A stretch of 16,952 nt of DNA, from the NCBI GenBank assembly GCA_026713205.1, contig JAPOOY010000133.1, forward strand, positions 1-16,952, in the 5' to 3' direction. The DNA is from Bdellovibrionales bacterium (GTDB lineage: Bacteria; Bdellovibrionota; Bdellovibrionia; Bdellovibrionales; UBA1609). Below the pieces are notes generated by a model, which saw only the letters and a list, made by a program, of their open reading frames with translations, made no database searches and was not told the DNA's origin. This document shows, piece after piece, positions 1 through 16,313 of the stretch. Position numbers and translations under genes: made by a program. Within the stretch, counting starts at the first letter, position 1, and each line of letters begins with the position of its first letter.

Positions 1-118
1 AAGTCGCTCTGTGGCAAAACGCATGTTTGAATTTTTGACCCCTATAGGCTGTTATAAAGGGTGTAAGCATTCTTTCTTATGAAAAACCAGAAAATTTCAA
101 ACTGGAGGAGTATAAAAG
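1..118. repeat. Palindromic element copy E1 (right half, cut by window edge)
   Basis: This is half of a palindromic repeat whose other half lies before the window. It begins in the core (CTGTGGCAAAACGCATG), continues through an arm containing CTGTTATAAAGGG, and ends in the family terminus (AAAATTTCAAACTGGAGGAG, then TATAAA). It is nearly identical, in reverse orientation, to the left half of the copy at 16026-16140. It lies just downstream of the tryptophanase stop codon and could act as its transcript end or 3' stem-loop; that role is inferred. Confidence 0.75.
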
Positions 119-3052: not shown

Positions 3053-3284
3053 TCCCCTCCTTTTATTTTATTTTGAGTTTTGCGTTTTTCCATTTACATA
3101 AAGATAGCCCTCCATTAAGAGAATATAGAGGTCAAAAGTGAGTTCGGCTTTGACACAAATGCGGCTAAAAGCCGCTTTGTGGCAAAACGCATGTCTGAAC
3201 TTTTGACCTCTATATTCTCTTAATGGAGGGAGTAATCCTTCTGTCATTAAAAAACCTCAAAACTCAACTCAAGAGAGGTACAAA
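3053..3284. repeat. Palindromic element copy E3 (full length, perfect 32-bp arms)
   Basis: A complete element. The outer ends are TTTTGAGTTTTGCGTTTTTC on the left and AAAAACCTCAAAACTCAACT on the right. The inner arms are 3108-3139 and 3199-3230, perfect inverted repeats over 32 bp. The central hairpin at about 3149-3186 pairs TTTG/CAAA, CACA/TGTG and GCGGCT/AGCCGC around a three-base loop. The element lies inside the ABC operon: its right end is 2 nt from the GldG-like stop codon and its left end touches the DUF4340 ribosome binding site. It could attenuate or process the transcript between the two genes; this is inference. Confidence 0.9.
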
Positions 3285-3285
3285 C

Positions 3286-4938
3286 TCAAGCTTCTCTTCT
3301 GCGGTACCACATCCACAAACTCAGGGACAGAAATATTAAGGGAAGAATAATAACCATTGTCACAAGACTGATACGATGGTTTTTTGTTAAGCTGATTTTT
3401 GTGCCTTTGGCCTGTTTGGGGCGGATAGTGATTAAATCCTCTTCATCCACAAGGGACACCACAGTGTTTAAAGCCAAGTCTCTATTAACACCTTCATGAA
3501 TGTATCTGTTTGTCAGAAAATCGCTGTCTCCGAAAACCACCAACCGAAATTCTTTTTTCTTTTGAGGGTTTTCTTTTTCATTGGAGGTTTCAGAATCTTC
3601 TTCTTCTGACTCAGATTCGCCGTGGCCACCGTGGGGATCTGAAAGGGGAGACTCCTTTTTCTTCTCTGATTTCGGTTTAACTTCAATGGCAACGGTTTGT
3701 GAATTAAGATTTTCTATTTTGACTTTTTCTTTCAGTTCCGGAACGGCAAAGCTGGCATCCACTGTGCGAACGAGACGGGAAGTTGTCCACTCCTCAGGAA
3801 ATTCATCTACCGCTTCCACCACACTGGCTCTGTTAAAGATAGCCGGAACATTTTTTAGAGCTGTCAGACGACGGGTGATAGGATGATTAGAATCAAAATG
3901 GGCTCCTAAGGCGGTTGCGGCGCTTCCAAAAAAAGCTCCTTGAGGGGTTAAAATAAAGTTATCTTGGTAGTTGATCCCAAATTCCTTTAAAAAGGGTTGG
4001 AGATTATGTTTTTCTCCGGGATCCAAGGCTATAAGAATACGGCCTCCTCTTTTTAAATAATCTTTCAACCACTGCGTTTCTTCATCCAGCCAGGGGCGGC
4101 GGGAGCCTATGGCCAGTACAACTTCAGGGTCTTTTGCAGGGGCTCCATCCTGGACAAAGCTCCATTCCTTAAGAGTTAATCCGGAGTCCATCAAACCCTG
4201 CTGAAAAATTTTTAAACCATCGGGTCTATCGTCCTGTAAGTCCTTTTCTCCATGACCGACAAGAAAATAGATCTCTTTTGTCGTTCTTTTTTTTACTTTA
4301 ACAAGGGCGGATGTAATGGATTGTTCATTAAAGGGGGCGGTGATGCGTACACTGCGTCCCTCATGTTCCGCAAAAACAAAAATTTCCTTTTGATTTTTAT
4401 CCGGGAGATCAGACAAGTTAAACTTTTCCGCCAGAGCATTATCTTTATAAGTGTCCACAAAACGGACTTTAAATTTTGTTGTTTTTTGTTTGTAAAGAAT
4501 CAAACTGTTTTTCAGTTCCTCCTTTGTAAATAACCCTCTCTCCGAGATTTTGTCTCCTTTGTAAAAGATATAAAGGATTAAATCCTCTTTGAGAGATTCC
4601 AAGGCCTCTTCTGTTTGTGGTGACAGGGAGTTGATTTTTTCCTCTGTTAAGTCAAAGGTTCGGTTGAAACGATGCCCGAAATAACCTGCTGCGGAAATTC
4701 CGATAATCACAAGTAGCAAAGACCACCCAAGGCTCATGCTGTTCTTTGTGGTTTTTGCCGTTAAAATTTCCAGGTAAAGCTTATAATCCAGAATAAGAGC
4801 TGCCAGCAATCCTACGACAAAAAGGGCAAGAAAAATATAGGAGATCGTTATCCAACCTCCCAGAATAAAGCGTGTGCCCGCAGCAATGATGAGAGAACAG
4901 CCGCTCAGTAATAAAGAAAGTTTTCCCCAAGGACTCAT
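3286..4938 (-). CDS. GldG-like auxiliary protein of ABC exporter
   Basis: A membrane protein with an extracytoplasmic domain, known as the third component of Gld-type ABC transporters. From the preferred ATG at 4938 (550 residues) it has N-terminal membrane segments at about 8-22, 28-52 and 70-86, the family hallmark FDLTEEKINSLSPQT at about 95-109, a periplasmic domain with FLVGHGEKD (225-233) and FGDSDFLTN (469-477), and a final helix at about 525-545. An in-frame GTG at 4950 would add four residues, but the ATG overlaps the permease stop as TAATG with GGAGG just upstream, so coupled translation is more likely. An unusual charged insert at about 424-462 contains DPHGGHGESESEEED. Function is inferred from the family and operon; the substrate is unknown. 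Confidence 0.88.
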   Translation of the reverse strand: MSPWGKLSLLLSGCSLIIAAGTRFILGGWITISYIFLALFVVGLLAALILDYKLYLEILTAKTTKNSMSLGWSLLLVIIGISAAGYFGHRFNRTFDLTEEKINSLSPQTEEALESLKEDLILYIFYKGDKISERGLFTKEELKNSLILYKQKTTKFKVRFVDTYKDNALAEKFNLSDLPDKNQKEIFVFAEHEGRSVRITAPFNEQSITSALVKVKKRTTKEIYFLVGHGEKDLQDDRPDGLKIFQQGLMDSGLTLKEWSFVQDGAPAKDPEVVLAIGSRRPWLDEETQWLKDYLKRGGRILIALDPGEKHNLQPFLKEFGINYQDNFILTPQGAFFGSAATALGAHFDSNHPITRRLTALKNVPAIFNRASVVEAVDEFPEEWTTSRLVRTVDASFAVPELKEKVKIENLNSQTVAIEVKPKSEKKKESPLSDPHGGHGESESEEEDSETSNEKENPQKKKEFRLVVFGDSDFLTNRYIHEGVNRDLALNTVVSLVDEEDLITIRPKQAKGTKISLTKNHRISLVTMVIILPLIFLSLSLWMWYRRREA

Positions 4939-5735
4939 TAAGGCCTCCACCTTCCAAATTCAATCACTCTATAGACCAGGAAGAGAAACAAGAAAATAGC
5001 GCTGATAAAGAAAACACAGGAACTCACAGTTAAACTGCCTTTAATGAAAAAGGTTAAATGGTTGCCGAGGGACAGGTATTCCATAATGGATGTGAAAATA
5101 GGATTGTTGGAAAAATCCTGGCCTTGAGAGATAAACCAGAGAACGACATTTAAGATGAATCCAATAATCATGCTTAAGAAGACGGAACTGGTCAAAGAGG
5201 AGGCAAAAAGCCCCACAGCCGTGTATAAAGCCGCCAGTAAAAATAACCCTATATAGGAGGCTAATAAAGGTTTAAAAGGTATTTCCGAAGGAAAGACTGC
5301 AACCATCAAAGGGTAAAGAAAGGTGACAGCCAGAAAACAAAAGACAAGACCTAAGAGAGCCAGGTATTTTCCCGTTACAATGTGAAAAGAGGAGATAGGG
5401 GTGGTCATTAGTAAATCAAAAGTACGATTTTTTCTCTCTTCCGCCAGAAATTTCATAGTTAGAGCCGGTACACAAAATAGAAGAAGAAGATTGATCAGGG
5501 AAATATGGGAGACAAATACGGCAAAGTGAATATTTTTTTCCTGTCCACCCATTTGCTGAAAAGCCGGCATCACATAGGAATCAGCAAACCGAAACAGTTC
5601 TCTTGGAAAAGTGTAACTTAAAAAACCACAGAAAATACCTATAAGGGAAAGAAACAGGGGACTGAAAATAGTTTGGGAAAAATCCCTCCAGGCAATCACA
5701 AAGGTCTGTCGGAAAAAAAACTTTACAGCATTCAT
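4938..5735 (-). CDS. ABC-2 type permease, GldF-like
   Basis: Integral membrane subunit of an ABC exporter, 265 residues, with about six hydrophobic segments. The stretch EERKNRTFDLLMTTPIS (99-115), after the second membrane segment, is the conserved cytoplasmic loop of GldF and related ABC-2 permeases. It should pair with the ATPase encoded immediately upstream: its ATG overlaps the ATPase stop as ATGA. It ends in a TAATG overlap with the GldG-like gene. Both junctions indicate translational coupling and stoichiometric expression. In Bacteroidetes the GldAFG complex is tied to gliding; outside that group such operons are widespread and uncharacterised, so gliding should not be assumed here. 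Confidence 0.9.
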   Translation of the reverse strand: MNAVKFFFRQTFVIAWRDFSQTIFSPLFLSLIGIFCGFLSYTFPRELFRFADSYVMPAFQQMGGQEKNIHFAVFVSHISLINLLLLFCVPALTMKFLAEERKNRTFDLLMTTPISSFHIVTGKYLALLGLVFCFLAVTFLYPLMVAVFPSEIPFKPLLASYIGLFLLAALYTAVGLFASSLTSSVFLSMIIGFILNVVLWFISQGQDFSNNPIFTSIMEYLSLGNHLTFFIKGSLTVSSCVFFISAIFLFLFLVYRVIEFGRWRP

Positions 5736-6667
5736 TTTTGCTCGTTCCTTTTATTTCCATCTGTCAGACGGATAAATACCTCTTCCAGATTTAGACCTTC
5801 CTCTTTCATTTCCAGGAGACCGAAATTTCCTGATACCACCACCTGCGCAACCTGTTCATTGACAGAGGAATCGGAGGAGGTTTGTAGTTCTATAAAAGTC
5901 TTTTTATCCTGGACGCTGAGGACACCTTTCAAAGATTGGAGTTTTTCCAACAGAGAAGGGGAATCATTTCTGGTTTTCAGAGTAAGGGTTTTTTGAGCGG
6001 AAAGCTTTGAGCCTAATTCCTGTAATGTGCTGGTGGTGACAATACTTCCTTCGTGAATAATGATCACACGGTCACAACTGGTTTGCACTTCCGGCAAAAT
6101 ATGCGTGGACAGGATAATAGTGTGCTGTCCCTTAAGGTCGGCGAGCAGTTCCCGTATTTCAACAACCTGTCTCGGGTCCAGTCCCACAGTGGGCTCATCC
6201 AAAATAAGGATGTCCGGATCAGTGATAATGGCTTGGGCCAACCCCACTCGCTGTTGAAAACCCTTGGACAAATTTCCAATCAGGCGTTTTTGGACAGACT
6301 GCAGACCGGCCTTTTCAATAGCACGATCTGTCAGAGTGGGAATTTTATGTGAGGGGCAGCATTTCAAACGGGCTGTAAATTGTAAATAATCCCTGACATA
6401 CATATCCTTGTAAACGGGAGGCGCTTCCGGCAGATAGCCGATTTTTTGTTTCACTTCAACGGGGTATTCCGAAATATCCTGGCTGTCAATTAACACCTTT
6501 CCCTGAGAGGGGGACATATAGCCTGTTAACATTCTCATTGTAGTGGTTTTACCTGCACCGTTTGGACCGAGAAAACCGACAATTTCCCCTTTATTTACGG
6601 TGAAACTCACATCCCGTACGGCGGCTCTATGTCCATAGCTTTTATGTAAATTACAAGCTTCAATCAT
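5732..6667 (-). CDS. ABC transporter ATP-binding protein, GldA/CcmA-like
   Basis: Cytoplasmic ATPase powering the exporter encoded downstream. All motifs are intact in its 311 residues: Walker A GPNGAGKTT (34-42), a Q-loop region near 74-80, signature LSKGFQQR (133-140), Walker B ILILDEPTVGLDP (153-165) with catalytic Glu158, and the H-loop His189 in STH. A C-terminal extension of about 90 residues ending in LEEVFIRLT is typical of this exporter group. It is the first gene of a four-gene minus-strand operon and its stop overlaps the permease start. The ribosome binding site is weak (GAGAGAG). A palindromic element separates it from mltD upstream. Confidence 0.93.
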   Translation of the reverse strand: MIEACNLHKSYGHRAAVRDVSFTVNKGEIVGFLGPNGAGKTTTMRMLTGYMSPSQGKVLIDSQDISEYPVEVKQKIGYLPEAPPVYKDMYVRDYLQFTARLKCCPSHKIPTLTDRAIEKAGLQSVQKRLIGNLSKGFQQRVGLAQAIITDPDILILDEPTVGLDPRQVVEIRELLADLKGQHTIILSTHILPEVQTSCDRVIIIHEGSIVTTSTLQELGSKLSAQKTLTLKTRNDSPSLLEKLQSLKGVLSVQDKKTFIELQTSSDSSVNEQVAQVVVSGNFGLLEMKEEGLNLEEVFIRLTDGNKRNEQK

Positions 6668-6708
6668 AAGGCTCTCTCTGAGGTTTTTTCTTTAACCAAT
6701 AATAAAAC

Positions 6709-6740
6709 AGTATAATTAGTGGTTTGAGAGAAACTGTCAA
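6709..6740 (-). promoter_or_regulatory. Possible sigma-70 promoter of the ABC operon
   Basis: On the minus strand TTGACA (6740-6735) is followed by an A/T-rich TATACT (6714-6709). The 20-nt spacing is longer than normal; a 17-nt spacing would use AATTAT instead. It lies about 45 nt before the ATPase start, the expected place, but the spacing makes it uncertain. Confidence 0.3.
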
Positions 6741-6798
6741 GTCTTTTTGGAAATGGAAGGCAATATATTTTTTTTACAAATGAATGGTTCATGAATTT

Positions 6799-7023
6799 TT
6801 ATACTGGTCCGGTTTGAAATTTTAGGTTTTCCGCTGACATAAAATGAGCCCTCCCTTAAGCAAATAGAGGGGTCAAAAGTTCAAACATGCGTTTTGCCAC
6901 AGAGCGACTTACAGCCGCACCTGTGTCAAAGCCGAACTCACTTTTGACCCCTCTATTTGCTTAAGGGAGGGTGTCATCTTTCTTTCATCTGGAAAACCGA
7001 AAATTTCAAACACAATTAGTGAA
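6799..7023. repeat. Palindromic element copy E4 (full length, perfect 32-bp arms)
   Basis: A complete element filling most of the 406-bp gap between mltD and the ABC operon. The left end starts TTATACTGGTCCGGTTTGAA and the right end closes CCGAAAATTTCAAACAC. The inner arms 6849-6880 and 6940-6971 are perfect inverted repeats of 32 bp. The core carries GTTTTGCCACAGAGCGACTT and AGCCGCACCTGTGTCAAAGC. Relative to E3 the core is in the opposite orientation and the arms differ at five positions, each difference being mirrored in the other arm. It lies downstream of mltD and upstream of the ABC promoter region, so it may insulate the two units. Confidence 0.9.
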
Positions 7024-9627: not shown

Positions 9628-10260
9628 ATGGAGTTGCGGCTTATTTTGGAGAATATTGTCTCTTCCCGGAAGATTCATGGGCGCTGGCTGAACACCCTTT
9701 CTTTTCTGGAATATATAGGAACACGAAAAATCCTGAAAAGCCTTCCGGCGAATATTCTGGATGAAACTCTACTGAGTCATGTTGCTGAAGAGGCTTTCCA
9801 CAGTTTGTTTTTTAAGAAACTGGCTCGGAAGCTCACTGTCAATAATTATTCATTTAAAGAGGAGGAAATGCTGGCGCCGGAAGAGTGTGAAAATTATTTT
9901 CAACAATTGGATAAGAAAGCGGAGCTTATTTCAAATGAAAAGCCCGATCTTAACTATCTTTACACCACCTGGATTGTGGAAACACGGGCGGTAAGTGTGT
10001 ACTCTCTTTACAATAAGATTTTAAAGGAGAAACAGTTTTCTTTTACCTTAAATCCTATTTTAAAGGATGAGGAAAAGCACTTAGCGCAGGTTAAAAATTG
10101 TATTCAACAGATGGACAGCCGACATGAAATCCATTTTCAGGAGTTAATGGGGTTTGAAGAGCAGGAATTTTCCGTTCTTCTCGAGCATTTAAAAAAAACT
10201 GTCTTTCAAAAAACGGAGATAAGTTCCAGGACTGCATCAACTCTTGGCAGTTATACCTGA
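9628..10260 (+). CDS. Ferritin-like di-iron protein of unknown function
   Basis: A 210-residue, largely helical protein with the spacing of a ferritin-like four-helix di-iron site: Glu28 in SFLEYIG; EEAFH at 54-58, giving an ExxH pair (Glu55, His58); Glu118 in WIVETRAVSVY; and DEEKH at 147-151, giving a second ExxH pair (Glu148, His151). Those six ligands suit an oxygen-activating carboxylate-bridged centre as in MiaE- or rubrerythrin-type proteins, but I cannot name the substrate. It follows bioD on the same strand after 177 nt. The start has GAGGTG at a good distance. The last three codons and the TGA fall inside the end of a palindromic element (from 10251), so the native C-terminus may have been altered. 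Confidence 0.7.
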   Translation: MELRLILENIVSSRKIHGRWLNTLSFLEYIGTRKILKSLPANILDETLLSHVAEEAFHSLFFKKLARKLTVNNYSFKEEEMLAPEECENYFQQLDKKAELISNEKPDLNYLYTTWIVETRAVSVYSLYNKILKEKQFSFTLNPILKDEEKHLAQVKNCIQQMDSRHEIHFQELMGFEEQEFSVLLEHLKKTVFQKTEISSRTASTLGSYT

Positions 10261-10295
10261 TCGTGCTTGAGTTTTCAGATTTTTAAAATGAAAAC
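10251..10295. repeat. Left end of palindromic element E6, overlapping the ferritin-like gene's stop
   Basis: TTATACCTGATCGTGCTTGA followed by GTTTTCAGATTTTTAAAATG matches the family terminus. Its TTATACC encodes the final Tyr-Thr of the ferritin-like protein and the next bases give the TGA. It pairs with an inverted end at 10955-11000 on the far side of brnTA. Confidence 0.65.
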
Positions 10296-10362
10296 AAAAA
10301 GAGAGCTTTTTGGTCTGGAACTTGTCTCATAAATACGATTATCAGTCATAAATTTACTTTAT

Positions 10363-10400
10363 TTGACAAGAAATCTATTTTCAGTATATACTGAAAAATA
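10363..10400 (+). promoter_or_regulatory. brnTA promoter with overlapping 20-bp perfect palindrome
   Basis: TTGACA at 10363-10368 is followed, after 18 nt, by TATACT at 10387-10392. The box lies inside the perfect palindrome TTTTCAGTATATACTGAAAA (10378-10397), which ends 2 nt before the brnT ATG. A dimeric repressor bound there would cover the -10 box and start site. BrnT-BrnA autorepression is known for the family, so this is the likely operator. The expected transcription start coincides with the ATG. Confidence 0.75.
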
Positions 10401-10693
10401 TGCGGTTTGAGTGGGATGAACGCAAGGCTGTTAGCAATTTTAAAAAGCATAAGGTCAACTTTGAGACAGCTATTACTGTATTTGATGATCCTTATGCTCT
10501 TATAGCGCCAGATGAAAAACACTCTACCGCTAAAGAAAAAAGAGAATGGATTATTGGAGAGTCGGATAGCGATATTTTAGTTGTTGTTTTTACTAAACGA
10601 ATACAAGGGGCTATATATCGTATAATCAGTGCTCGTAAAGCAAATAAAAAGGAAAGGAGACTTTATGAAGAATATAAAAAACTTCCCTTTTGA
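10400..10693 (+). CDS. brnT: BrnT family toxin (ribonuclease) of type II toxin-antitoxin pair
   Basis: BrnT proteins are small RelE-fold ribonucleases that stop translation and are neutralised by BrnA. The 97-residue protein has the family pattern from end to end: start MRFEWDERKA, then NFKKHKVNFE, VFDDP, a DEKHS segment at 38-42, IIGES, LVVVFTKR and the closing RIISARKANKKERRLYEE, which holds conserved basic residues (Arg74, Arg79). The ATG fits the family N-terminus exactly, yet no Shine-Dalgarno site precedes it and the -10 box ends 7 nt upstream, so the mRNA is probably leaderless. The 3' end overlaps brnA by 29 nt. The module sits between inverted ends of a palindromic element. Confidence 0.92.
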   Translation: MRFEWDERKAVSNFKKHKVNFETAITVFDDPYALIAPDEKHSTAKEKREWIIGESDSDILVVVFTKRIQGAIYRIISARKANKKERRLYEEYKKLPF

Positions 10694-10949
10694 GAAATCA
10701 AGAAGGATTACTTTAAAGGAGACAACAGCGGCTAAGAAAGCTATTGAAAGGAAAACAGGAATAAAGCGCCCAATGCGTGGAAGGCCTGCTAAAGGGAAAC
10801 ACAAATATGTGCCGACCTCTATCAGGCTGCATCCGAAAGTTTTAAGCTGGGCAAAAAGAGAAGCAAAAAAAAGAGGAATAGGGTATCAGACAGTCATTAA
10901 TGAATCTTTAATTAAAAAAATATCTGCAAGCTATACTGATCATATTTGA
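10665..10949 (+). CDS. brnA: BrnA family antitoxin
   Basis: DNA-binding antitoxin partner of BrnT, 94 residues. The N-terminal half is basic and probably contacts the toxin. The C-terminal half carries the BrnA ribbon-helix-helix-like segment: PTSIRLHPKVLSWAKREA, then GYQTVINESLIKK. The ATG at 10665 is chosen because AAGGAAAGGAGA lies just upstream; a GTG at 10629 in the same frame would give a longer form but has no such site. It overlaps the brnT 3' end, the usual order for this family. The stronger ribosome site on brnA than on brnT should favour antitoxin supply. The gene ends directly against the right element end. Confidence 0.9.
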   Translation: MKNIKNFPFEKSRRITLKETTAAKKAIERKTGIKRPMRGRPAKGKHKYVPTSIRLHPKVLSWAKREAKKRGIGYQTVINESLIKKISASYTDHI

Positions 10950-10954
10950 AAAAT

Positions 10955-11000
10955 CATGAACTGCGGAAAACTGCAAAACTCAACCCCGATCGGTATAATT
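10955..11000. repeat. Right end of palindromic element E6, after brnA
   Basis: TGCGGAAAACTGCAAAACTC followed by AACCCCGATCGGTATAA is the family terminus in inverted orientation relative to 10251-10295. It begins within a few bases of the brnA stop codon. Between the two ends (about 750 bp in all) the usual arms and core are absent and brnTA takes their place. Confidence 0.65.
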
Positions 11001-12180: not shown

Positions 12181-12300
12181 TTATACCAATCCGGTTTGAG
12201 TTTTGAGATTTTCTGTTTATATGAATTAGCACTTCATGAGAGTATTTAGGATTCAAAAGTGAGCGCGAATTTGACACAAGTGCGGCTATCAGCCGCTTTT
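12181..12300. repeat. Palindromic element copy E7 (left half only), fused to the mtnA 3' end
   Basis: The left end TTATACCAATCCGGTTTGAG is followed by an arm ending TTCAAAAGTGAGCGCGAATT and the core TTTGACACAAGTGCGGCTAT, then CAGCCGC. The element stops just past the central hairpin; the right arm and right end are missing. The hairpin contains the last two sense codons and TGA of mtnA, so the gene and the element share sequence. Confidence 0.75.
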
Positions 12301-13251
12301 TGGTTTAAAAATTCCCTTCTCTGTAATAATACCCGTGATTAAAGAGGCGGGAGTTACATCAAAAGAGGGATTATAGATAGAGCCTTTATCTGCCCAGAAA
12401 GGAGAAATTTCCTCTGCATTTCTTTGTTCAATGGGGATGTCCTGTCCTGAAAGGCATTGTCTGTCAAAAGCTGATTCAGGCGCGACAACATAAAAAGGCA
12501 CCTGAAAATGCCTGGAGATCACGGCGAGACTTAAAGTGCCTGTTTTATTAGCTACATCTCCTCCGTTACTGATCCGATCAGCTCCTAAAAAGACGGTATT
12601 TACTTTTTTTTGAGCCATGAGGCCGGCGGCCATGTTGTCACATATCAAAGTGCAGGGGATTTGTTCTTTTTGCAGCTCCCAAAAGGTGAGTCGGGATCCT
12701 TGATTAACGGGGCGGGTTTCACACACATAAACATGAATCTTCTTTTTATCTTTGTGAGCTTGTTTAATCACTCCTAAGGAGGTGCCTTCCCCCCCTGTAG
12801 CCAGTGAACCGGCATTACAATAAGTGAGAATCTGATCTCCCGAATGAATGAGGTTTTTCGCTTTTTGAGCGATTTGCTCACAGGCCTTTTTATCTTCTTC
12901 ATAAATTTGGAGAGCCGTTTCCAGTCGGTGAGTTGCTGTGGTTTGTTTCAGAATACGATCCACGGCGGAAAACAAATGAATGGCCGTGGGCCGGGCTGAC
13001 TTCAGTTTTTCCCCCGCTTGTTGAATTTTTATTTCAGAGGATTCTCTGAGAGCATAATCGGCTAAACTAAAAGCCGCACTGATGCCAATGAGATTGGCTC
13101 CTCGCACTTTCAGGCCTTTGATTATAGAATACATATCTTCCGGTTGGGAAACAGGAATCCATTTTATTTTTTCCGGAAGAAGGGTCTGATCCAAGATCAG
13201 CAACTCTTTTCCAGGCTGGTATTTTATGGCTAAGGTTTCAACAGATTTCAT
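12289..13251 (-). CDS. mtnA: Methylthioribose-1-phosphate isomerase
   Basis: Converts 5-methylthioribose 1-phosphate to 5-methylthioribulose 1-phosphate in the methionine salvage pathway (cytoplasm). From ATG 13251 (320 residues) it has VRGANLIGISAA near 49-60, the catalytic cysteine in YCNAGSLATGG (Cys145), CETRPVNQGSRLT (177-189) and the catalytic aspartate in LGADRISNGGDVANKTGT (Asp225). The family resemblance excludes the related eIF2B subunits, which lack this set. An in-frame TTG at 13278 would add nine residues; the ATG fits the family N-terminus, but its GGAGGT site is 14 nt away, longer than usual. At 320 residues it is on the short side, and its last codons and stop lie in repeat E7. 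No other mtn gene is in view. Confidence 0.9.
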   Translation of the reverse strand: MKSVETLAIKYQPGKELLILDQTLLPEKIKWIPVSQPEDMYSIIKGLKVRGANLIGISAAFSLADYALRESSEIKIQQAGEKLKSARPTAIHLFSAVDRILKQTTATHRLETALQIYEEDKKACEQIAQKAKNLIHSGDQILTYCNAGSLATGGEGTSLGVIKQAHKDKKKIHVYVCETRPVNQGSRLTFWELQKEQIPCTLICDNMAAGLMAQKKVNTVFLGADRISNGGDVANKTGTLSLAVISRHFQVPFYVVAPESAFDRQCLSGQDIPIEQRNAEEISPFWADKGSIYNPSFDVTPASLITGIITEKGIFKPKSG

Positions 13252-15489: not shown

Positions 15490-15686
15490 ATATCGGGAAA
15501 TACCGGACATATGTCTTTTTTGACACAGTCTTTACAGAATATACTGGAGACATTCTTTGAGTGGAACCGGTGGACGATCCTTTTGGGATAGAAAAAGTGT
15601 AAAGGATGTCTCCGGTATAAAACGTAAAGACTGTGTCCGGTATAGACCGAAATACCCTGACATTTCCAGAAATGTGTCTTTTTTGA
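15490..15686. repeat. Large inverted repeat next to the tRNA-Gly 3' end
   Basis: Arms at 15522-15558 and 15601-15637 are inverted repeats of 37 bp with 31 matches, around a 42-bp loop. Outside them a weaker pair (ATACCGG at 15500-15506; CCGGTAT at 15638-15644) extends the symmetry. The motif TGTCCGGTATA or its TGTCTCCGGTATA variant recurs in both orientations, and TGTCTTTTTTGA occurs at both outer borders (near 15513 and 15677). It shares no sequence with the other palindromic family. It resembles a small transposon-derived element or clustered protein-binding sites. Between it and the cassette promoter (15326-15489) I see nothing else. Confidence 0.65.
15658..15684 (+). terminator. Plus-strand hairpin with T-run at the border of the inverted repeat
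   Basis: GACATTTC, loop CA, then GAAATGTGTC (one bulge) is followed by TTTTTT. It has terminator form for plus-strand transcripts and faces the convergent tRNA-Gly gene. No plus-strand gene precedes it, so it may only be part of the repeat. Confidence 0.35.
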
Positions 15687-15781: not shown

Positions 15782-15932
15782 TTCCTTCATTTGCTGAGTT
15801 TTGAGGTTTTTCAAATGAAAAGAACATAAATTTCTTCCTGAGAGAGTTGGGAAGTCTTCCAGATTTTCCAGCTCTCTCAGGAAGAGTTCATTTTTATCTT
15901 AGTAGAAAACTTCAAAATACAATTGGTATAAA
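15777..15932. repeat. Palindromic element copy E8 (different arms, no GCGGCT core)
   Basis: The ends are of the usual type: GCTGAGTTTTGAGGTTTTTC on the left, GAAAACTTCAAAATACAATT then GGTATAAAT on the right. The centre is unlike the other copies: a perfect 13-bp inverted repeat CTTCCTGAGAGAG (15834-15846) and CTCTCTCAGGAAG (15872-15884) around 25 bp. It shows that the family is defined by its ends and its palindromy rather than by one interior. Confidence 0.7.
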
Positions 15933-15984
15933 TCTAAGCGTTCATCTTTTACAATGCAAGCAAAAAAGAAGAACTGTGAAGGAG

Positions 15985-16025: not shown

Positions 16026-16313
16026 TTTATACTCCTCCGGTTTGAAATTTTCCGGTTCTTCATAAGAAAAAATACTTACACCCTTTATAACAGCCTATAG
16101 GTGCCAAAAATTCAGATATGCGTTTTGCCACAGAGCGACTTTCAGCCGCATCTGTGTCAAGTTCGTGCTCCTTTTTGACGCTTAATTTATGGGTTTTAAT
16201 CCGAAGCCGCATCTGTGCCAAAGCCGAACTCCTTTTTGACCCCTGTAGGTTGTTATAAAGGGCTTATGTCTCTTAAAGAAAAACCGGAAAATTTCAAACA
16301 CGATCGGTTTAAA
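16026..16313. repeat. Palindromic element copy E9 (full length, internal duplication)
   Basis: The left end starts TTTATACTCCTCCGGTTTGA; the right end closes GGAAAATTTCAAACACGATC, then GGTTTAAA. The arms contain ACCCTTTATAACAGCCTATA (left) and its near-complement GTAGGTTGTTATAAAGGG (right), with about 4 mismatches in 30. The centre holds the family core GTTTTGCCACAGAGCGACTT, but a segment beginning AGCCGCATCTGTG is present twice, at 16144 and 16205 (offset 61 nt), so the core is duplicated. It lies downstream of the partial proline-rich gene. Confidence 0.88.

Follow-up and report, generated by a model that had tools for sequence, protein, structure and literature searches.

A dispersed hairpin repeat of Bdellovibrionales with matched, co-varying arms

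Results

Palindromic copies in the window

We analysed a 16,952-nt stretch of DNA from a Bdellovibrionales bacterium (contig JAPOOY010000133.1; hereafter the window), which belongs to a draft genome of 1.5 Mb in 302 contigs (G000). Several copies of a palindromic element lie in the window (Table 1), and two of them, E3 and E4, carry the inner arms that a previous sequence-only reading had described as perfect over 32 bp and as differing between the copies only by mirrored changes. Both descriptions held: the arms of each copy are 100% complementary with 59 nt between them, and the five differences between the E3 and E4 arms (arm positions 7, 13, 14, 19 and 22) are all mirrored in the opposite arm. 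The inverted core of E4 is a detail that the reading had not contained. The genes flanking E3 are 236 bp apart in the window, whereas in all 6 relatives searched they abut, with anything between a short overlap and a gap of 9 bp, which identifies E3 as an insertion; this empty-site comparison covers one site, at which the N-terminal sequence, rather than an alignment, served to identify the second gene. The third and fourth arm types proposed for E9 and E8 stood in part. The ATAACAGCCTATAGG type is present at E9, which appears composite rather than a clean copy, and what we take to be E8 is a degenerate left half with no right arm.

From the outside inwards, terminal inverted repeat (TIR) ends are followed by an imperfect outer stem and a second asymmetric stretch, and these enclose the stem P1, a conserved loop and the P2/P3 hairpin. 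The TIR end TATACNNNTCNNGTTTGA, with at most one mismatch, occurs at 383 sites in G000 (0 for the backward-read pattern), and 58 of 76 paired TIR ends are separated by 200–239 bp; the ends read TATAC...GTATA, which, judged from the element ends alone, is compatible with a TA duplication. The P1 stem (~30 bp) is free in sequence and encloses a conserved two-strand asymmetric loop, GAGTTCGGM / CGCATGTYYGA; the inner arm measures ~32 bp in G000, with a median aligned length of 28.5–35 in the six relatives that have at least six intact copies. An alignment of 60 hairpins has among its invariant or near-invariant columns a 5'-side GAGTTCGG-TTTG and a 3'-side CAAAACGCATGT--GA; in more distant genomes the changes in P2 are paired too and GAGTTCGGM and CGCATGTYYGA form the constant part. 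The predicted fold of E3 has an energy of -76.3 kcal/mol (z = -15). At its gathering score, Rfam returned a single tRNA for the window and no family for the element; at a relaxed threshold, microRNA precursors made up 12 of the 14 matches to one further locus (L063) and 7 of the 8 to E3, and these below-threshold matches are read as what any hairpin would give, with no real family among them.

Table 1. Copies of the element and their parts in the window.
Feature	Position	Strand	Remarks
E1, half copy truncated by contig start, with TIR end, arm and right part of core	1..114	none	
E3, whole element	3072..3285	+ (core on + strand)	Fills most of intergenic gap; flanking genes contiguous in relatives
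E3, 32-nt inner arm on the left (5' strand of P1)	3108..3139	+	Inverted-repeat listing
E3, conserved internal loop, 5' strand, and start of P2, GAGTTCGGCTTTG	3140..3152	+	
E3, variable P2/P3 hairpin with G-T intermediates across copies	3153..3182	+	
E3, conserved internal loop, 3' strand, CAAAACGCATGTCTGA	3183..3198	+	
E3, inner arm on the right (3' strand of P1), 100% complementary to the left one	3199..3230	+	Inverted-repeat listing
E4, whole element (locus L009)	6800..7016	-	Core on - strand, inverted relative to element ends
E4, inner arm	6849..6880	none	Inverted-repeat listing
E4, core (loop and P2/P3)	6881..6939	-	
E4, inner arm 100% complementary to 6849-6880	6940..6971	none	Inverted-repeat listing
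Degenerate left half without right arm, comprising TIR, arm, 5' loop and P2/P3; taken as earlier E8	12182..12305	+	
E9, seemingly composite: left half twice, one version degenerate	16028..16311 (about)	-	

Arms are matched within copies and differ between them

DNA searches of G000 had already returned many copies before a covariance model of the core, trained on 60 hairpins from ten genomes, was applied; the model matched 150 of 150 scored places drawn from 967 first-look candidates, and the count of at least 150 core matches is a lower bound that includes some partial matches at contig ends. The stretches fetched comprised 138 distinct core matches, 119 of them with at least 45 nt of flank on both sides; the arm-intact threshold of at least 22 Watson-Crick pairs out of 28 was passed by 103 of these copies and failed by 16. 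Inside a copy, the two arms differed by a mean of 1.9%, a figure that excludes the 16 decayed copies, compared with 32% between the left arms of different copies; 68 of the 103 arm-intact copies showed zero mismatches over the 28 pairs. Identity within copies is thus far higher than between them, the reverse of the result that the sequence-only reading had named as its refutation.

The covariation alignment held 83 distinct hairpins out of the 103 arm-intact copies. Across the 31-bp arm helix, 98.0% of cells were paired and both-sided changes occurred at 27 of the 31 pairs; four arm pairs (A2 columns 13/109, 15/107, 16/106 and 18/104) displayed each of the four Watson-Crick types, and every one of their cells was paired. 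The whole structure had a covariation score of 0.480, which was reached by 0 of 500 shuffles, and shifting the partner by one to three columns reduced the score to 0.130 or less. The arm pairing pattern is far beyond chance.

Similar behaviour was observed in relatives, for which a filter similar to that of G000 was used and substitution mismatches were counted. Within-copy mismatch was 1.7% in G002 (12 of 14 copies), 5.1% in G016 (22 of 22), 6.8% in G001 (42 of 59), 7.1% in JANQSP (16 of 16), 5.2% in JANQSX (7 of 7) and 8.5% in G004 (6 of 10), against a between-copy arm mismatch of 22–42% in the same relatives; in JAUICD one left arm was common to two copies, and two further genomes gave a single copy each. 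The checks that had been suggested (many copies, arms taken separately, covariation, and within versus between) therefore turned out as predicted, and the mirrored-arm observation is confirmed as real and general.

Some loci have further features. L203 combines left and right arms of two different types, and the outer arm parts of L199 and L210 look locally inverted. A G+C-rich short hairpin sits within the P3 loop of L064, L075, L079 and L110. At about 740–900 of L061, one core appears by eye to lie within another of opposite orientation, so that an arm of one forms the inner helix of the other. L042, L092 and L109 (genomes G004 and G001) are tandem arrays with steps of 184 bp and ~127 bp, whose first units lack a matching right arm.

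Mirrored changes exceed independent double hits

Private changes, defined as those seen in a single copy, were counted in the two largest subfamilies of G000 (33 and 32 copies), restricted to arm-intact copies. The private rate of the outer regions, taken from singletons, was 2.3% and 1.5% per site. If the arms mutated independently at this rate, 42.7 and 27.2 private one-sided changes would be expected, yet 8 and 8 were seen (16 versus 70 in all). Private mirrored changes showed the opposite deviation, with 6 and 8 seen versus 0.16 and 0.07 from two independent hits (14 versus 0.23), a ~60-fold excess over what double hits arising independently would give. When all changes were counted, mirrored outnumbered one-sided changes by 85 to 12 and 23 to 17 in the two subfamilies, while among the closest copies the two kinds were about equally frequent (123 versus 116 in 110 overlapping pairs). 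The nine-base context of 12 of the 14 private mirrored changes was absent from all other of the 138 copies, which makes sister copies an unlikely source. Block conversion between copies was accordingly rejected: the context recurs for only 2 of the 14, and for one of these the end of the arm shortens it to five bases.

The orientation of the core relative to the element ends provides a second line of evidence. Among the 103 arm-intact copies, 78 cores were standard, 11 inverted (3 of these calls resting on small margins), 8 ambiguous and 6 too short; this count replaces a stricter marker-based one, which left 41 of the 103 unclassified (3 were flipped and 59 standard), and a looser flipped-core count of 19 of 96 contains ambiguous rows. 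The outer stem showed hardly any matching when compared with the inner arms in 96 copies and 1500 sampled cross pairs: its similarity was 0.686 within versus 0.663 across copies, compared with 0.978 and 0.762 for the inner arms. Two reports give arm matching and spacer inversion as products of template switching at inverted repeats (PMC8604942, PMC8794818). Of the two origins that the sequence-only reading had offered, arm-to-arm templated correction is hence favoured as the source of the mirrored changes, by their ~60-fold excess, the 12 of 14 unique contexts and the inverted cores.

Leftover mismatches are biased towards G-T on one strand

Read on the core strand, the leftover arm mismatches of the 103 copies comprised 22 G-T and 7 A-C. 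Counted by substitution type in three subfamilies, the contrast was 19 versus 2 in the arms, 69 versus 45 in the outer regions and 13 versus 17 in the core; outside G000, distinct G-T and A-C states numbered 52 versus 29 pooled and 13 versus 13 in G001. Wobble intermediates were more frequent in P3, where G-T accounted for 7.2% of cells versus 0.76% in the arms, these P3 cells lying at few positions and being partly inherited. The bias among leftovers implies either that the fold of one strand is constrained too or that correction is blind to G-T. Rough arithmetic on these small numbers would fit a correction of all but G-T mismatches in which half revert and half spread. Because the one-sided leftovers are mostly G-T and seldom A-C, the other origin offered, selection on a fold, is needed besides templating; either process alone accounts for only part of the data.

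Mobility and distribution

Copies in G000 are mostly intergenic and have no clear preference in their orientation relative to genes among the 138 copies (25 --, 24 -+, 19 +-, 16 ++, 3 overlapping an open reading frame (ORF) and 51 not scorable). In other genomes, convergent placement was commonest (19 of 79), followed by 14 --, 12 ++, 7 -+ and 6 overlapping, with 21 not scorable. The core model matched 16 of 47 genomes of the family. In the class it matched 29 of 143, every one of them within the order of the window, with only 2 matches in G031. A relaxed loop pattern was found in 18 of 368 genomes of the phylum, again all in that order, and its backward control once, in another genome. At least 67 stretches were returned by a scan of a wider collection, and their titles, among the matches listed, were Bdellovibrionales, Bdellovibrionaceae, Bdellovibrionia or Oligoflexia. 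G001 and G003 are of the same genus as G000, and G003 (87% complete) gave no core match.

Candidate mobilisers were sought in the 16 core-bearing genomes of the family. DDE_3 (PF13358) was found in none of them; Y1_Tnp (PF01797) was present in 9, with one match at a contig edge in G000, and absent from 7 (G001, G002, G004, G016, G017, G053 and G054), which include the core-rich G001, G002, G004, G016 and G054. Both transposases were set aside, as their occurrence is not tied to the core. Phage and plasmid sets gave no blastn match, and the strict core pattern occurred in 0 viral contigs. With the relaxed pattern, 28 viral stretches were retrieved, in which at most 10 of 24 flank positions pair; in the same reading of 30 Bdellovibrionales places (two listed twice), 25 pair at 19–24 and 5 at 10–15 positions. 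Carriage by phages or plasmids was rejected on this basis, the viral stretches being taken as chance matches because their flanks pair so little.

Two further roles were tried and rejected. The TIR ends gave no sign of acting as Shine-Dalgarno (SD) donors for downstream genes by the measure of following starts (4 of 44 SD-type ends versus 19 of 266 others, p = 0.55), and a derivation of the arms from target genes was dropped, as five arm/ORF-end overlaps among the examined copies, one at an ORF 3' end, formed no pattern.

Discussion

The element is primarily a mobile repeat, with no host function assigned. We consider it probable that it is an element like a miniature inverted-repeat transposable element (MITE) whose arms are corrected by template switching and whose fold on the core-plus strand is constrained as well. 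E3, E4 and their relatives would then belong to a mobile Bdellovibrionales element that is non-coding and, in G000, MITE-like. A nascent strand would switch template across the hairpin, so that a mutation in one arm is copied to the other or reverted; the arms would thereby evolve in concert, and the same kind of event might occasionally invert the spacer, that is, the core. The conserved loop may be kept as a recognition site or as an RNA part required for spread, and the additionally constrained core-plus-strand fold could be that of RNA or single-stranded DNA. In a bolder version, which we hold to be unlikely, the conserved loop, which lies between two helices free in sequence and was seen here in a single bacterial order, would serve for recognition or catalysis at the centre of a hairpin-based mobile system not yet described, made of RNA or single-stranded DNA of one strand, with arm-to-arm copying as part of the spread.

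Among the alternatives, selection alone fares best, although we regard it as unlikely. It holds that structure in the core-plus strand, as RNA or as single-stranded DNA, is maintained by purging mismatched copies or by second-site compensation, and that no templating takes place. The surplus of G-T over A-C leftovers in the arms agrees with this, more weakly so outside G000 (52 versus 29, and 13 versus 13 in G001), as do the G-C/G-T/A-T intermediates in P3, a loop conserved across families of the order, a minimum free energy z of -15, the accompaniment of core decay by arm decay, and two loci, L180 and L166, that resemble a G-T intermediate and its mirrored product. It would, however, require two hits per change in many copies, whereas 14 mirrored changes were seen for 0.23 expected; five of these are transversions, for which no wobble intermediate exists, and the four arm pairs with all four Watson-Crick types have zero unpaired cells. 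The lack of a clear orientation preference in G000 also speaks against a cis-regulatory RNA; in other genomes, convergent placement is commonest.

Matching at transposition only, where a copy is rebuilt from one arm (hairpin-primed) or descends from a perfect-armed source and then decays neutrally, appears improbable. It would account for the 68 of 103 copies without a mismatch in 28 pairs and for the 16 of 119 whose match is lost, but the 16 private one-sided changes against 70 expected suggest that matching is ongoing after insertion, and the strand bias of the residual mismatches also counts against it. That the assembler merged two arms is very improbable: G000 is a 302-contig draft in which some contigs begin or end inside copies, but the arms match as well in copies that lie on long single contigs (L063, 3.26 Mb; L322, 2.66 Mb) and across assemblies with different contig naming styles, copies with unmatched arms were assembled as well (16 of 119), and by our reasoning 32-bp arms with an interior difference have no long k-mer common to both sides.

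Several points weigh against template-switched correction of a mobile element under added constraint. Strand-biased mismatches are not predicted by plain DNA template switching. More than six arm mismatches were found in 11 of 23 core-degraded copies versus 4 of 83 core-intact copies (13 copies falling between the classes), so that decayed arms are commoner where the core is degraded; yet perfect arms were retained in 6 of the 23, which counts in favour of templating. The outer-region singletons that supply the neutral rate may be partly constrained or misaligned, and in some relatives arm mismatch reaches 5–8.5%, above that of G000. A change that is mirrored in L166 is a one-arm G-T in L180, as a two-step path would give, and this change is one of the two whose context recurs elsewhere. 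The outer stem is uncorrected, though it was perhaps never near-palindromic, and core inversion could alternatively arise by recombination between the arms. No mobiliser was found in a search that covered DDE_3 and Y1_Tnp and no other transposase families. According to PMC8604942, template switching occurs mostly at short spacers, with inverted spacers of a few bases, compared with a spacer here of 59 nt that is itself foldable; a short spacer is nevertheless a usual rather than a defining trait of such repeats. Transitions also prevail among the private mirrored single-base changes (9 of 14, with 5 transversions), although bacterial data cited within that source favour transversions.

The element resembles several known kinds of repeat without coinciding with any of them. 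Bacterial MITEs are short, non-coding, TIR-ended and mostly intergenic and reach high copy numbers, all of which applies here; unlike them, the element has a near-perfect inner stem with co-varying arms, a conserved internal loop common to genera with differing outer parts, and no mobilising transposase among DDE_3 and Y1_Tnp. REP/REPIN elements are dispersed, intergenic hairpins of high copy number that are paired with a Y1 transposase (RAYT); the present element shares their dispersal, hairpin form, copy number and location, but is larger, has another motif and is found without Y1_Tnp in 7 of the 16 core-bearing genomes. Stem-loop sequence families of bacteria, which as described in PMC2267715 are mostly intergenic repeats with a common predicted hairpin, are alike in being repeated, hairpin-forming and intergenic; the interest of the present element lies in its arm matching. 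As described in PMC8604942 and PMC8794818, template-switched inverted repeats are alike in their homogenised arms and inverted spacer or loop, while the element differs in being dispersed as a family (at least 150 core matches in G000), in its ~30-bp arms and 59-nt structured spacer, in its strand-biased leftovers and in an outer stem that escapes. Among the matches listed from a literature that excludes most subscription journals, we found no description of the repeat, and the exact core strings appeared in three papers with titles on other organisms. The element is a new family of mobile hairpin repeats with unusual, countable concerted evolution of its arms.

Co-varying stems are usually taken as proof of selection on RNA structure. 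Much of the covariation here looks mutational, and internal controls (outer stem, P3 and loop) let the two causes be separated numerically, so that the family is a natural system in which to study how the arms of a hairpin remain matched while evolving. Bdellovibrionales gain a high-copy mobile hairpin, the conserved loop of which invites a search for a binding protein or mobiliser.

Other features of the window

Positions 15795-15935 hold TIR-like ends and an 88% inverted repeat with a 3-nt spacer and no core, perhaps a coreless relative of the element, and an inverted repeat at 15522-15637 has 37-nt arms that are 84% complementary and 42 nt apart, with no core noted. A gene pair at 10252-10998, whose sequences look like BrnT/BrnA, lies by eye between TIR-like ends of the element family, as if carried. 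The contig end, 16799-16952, consists of 54-bp tandem repeats.

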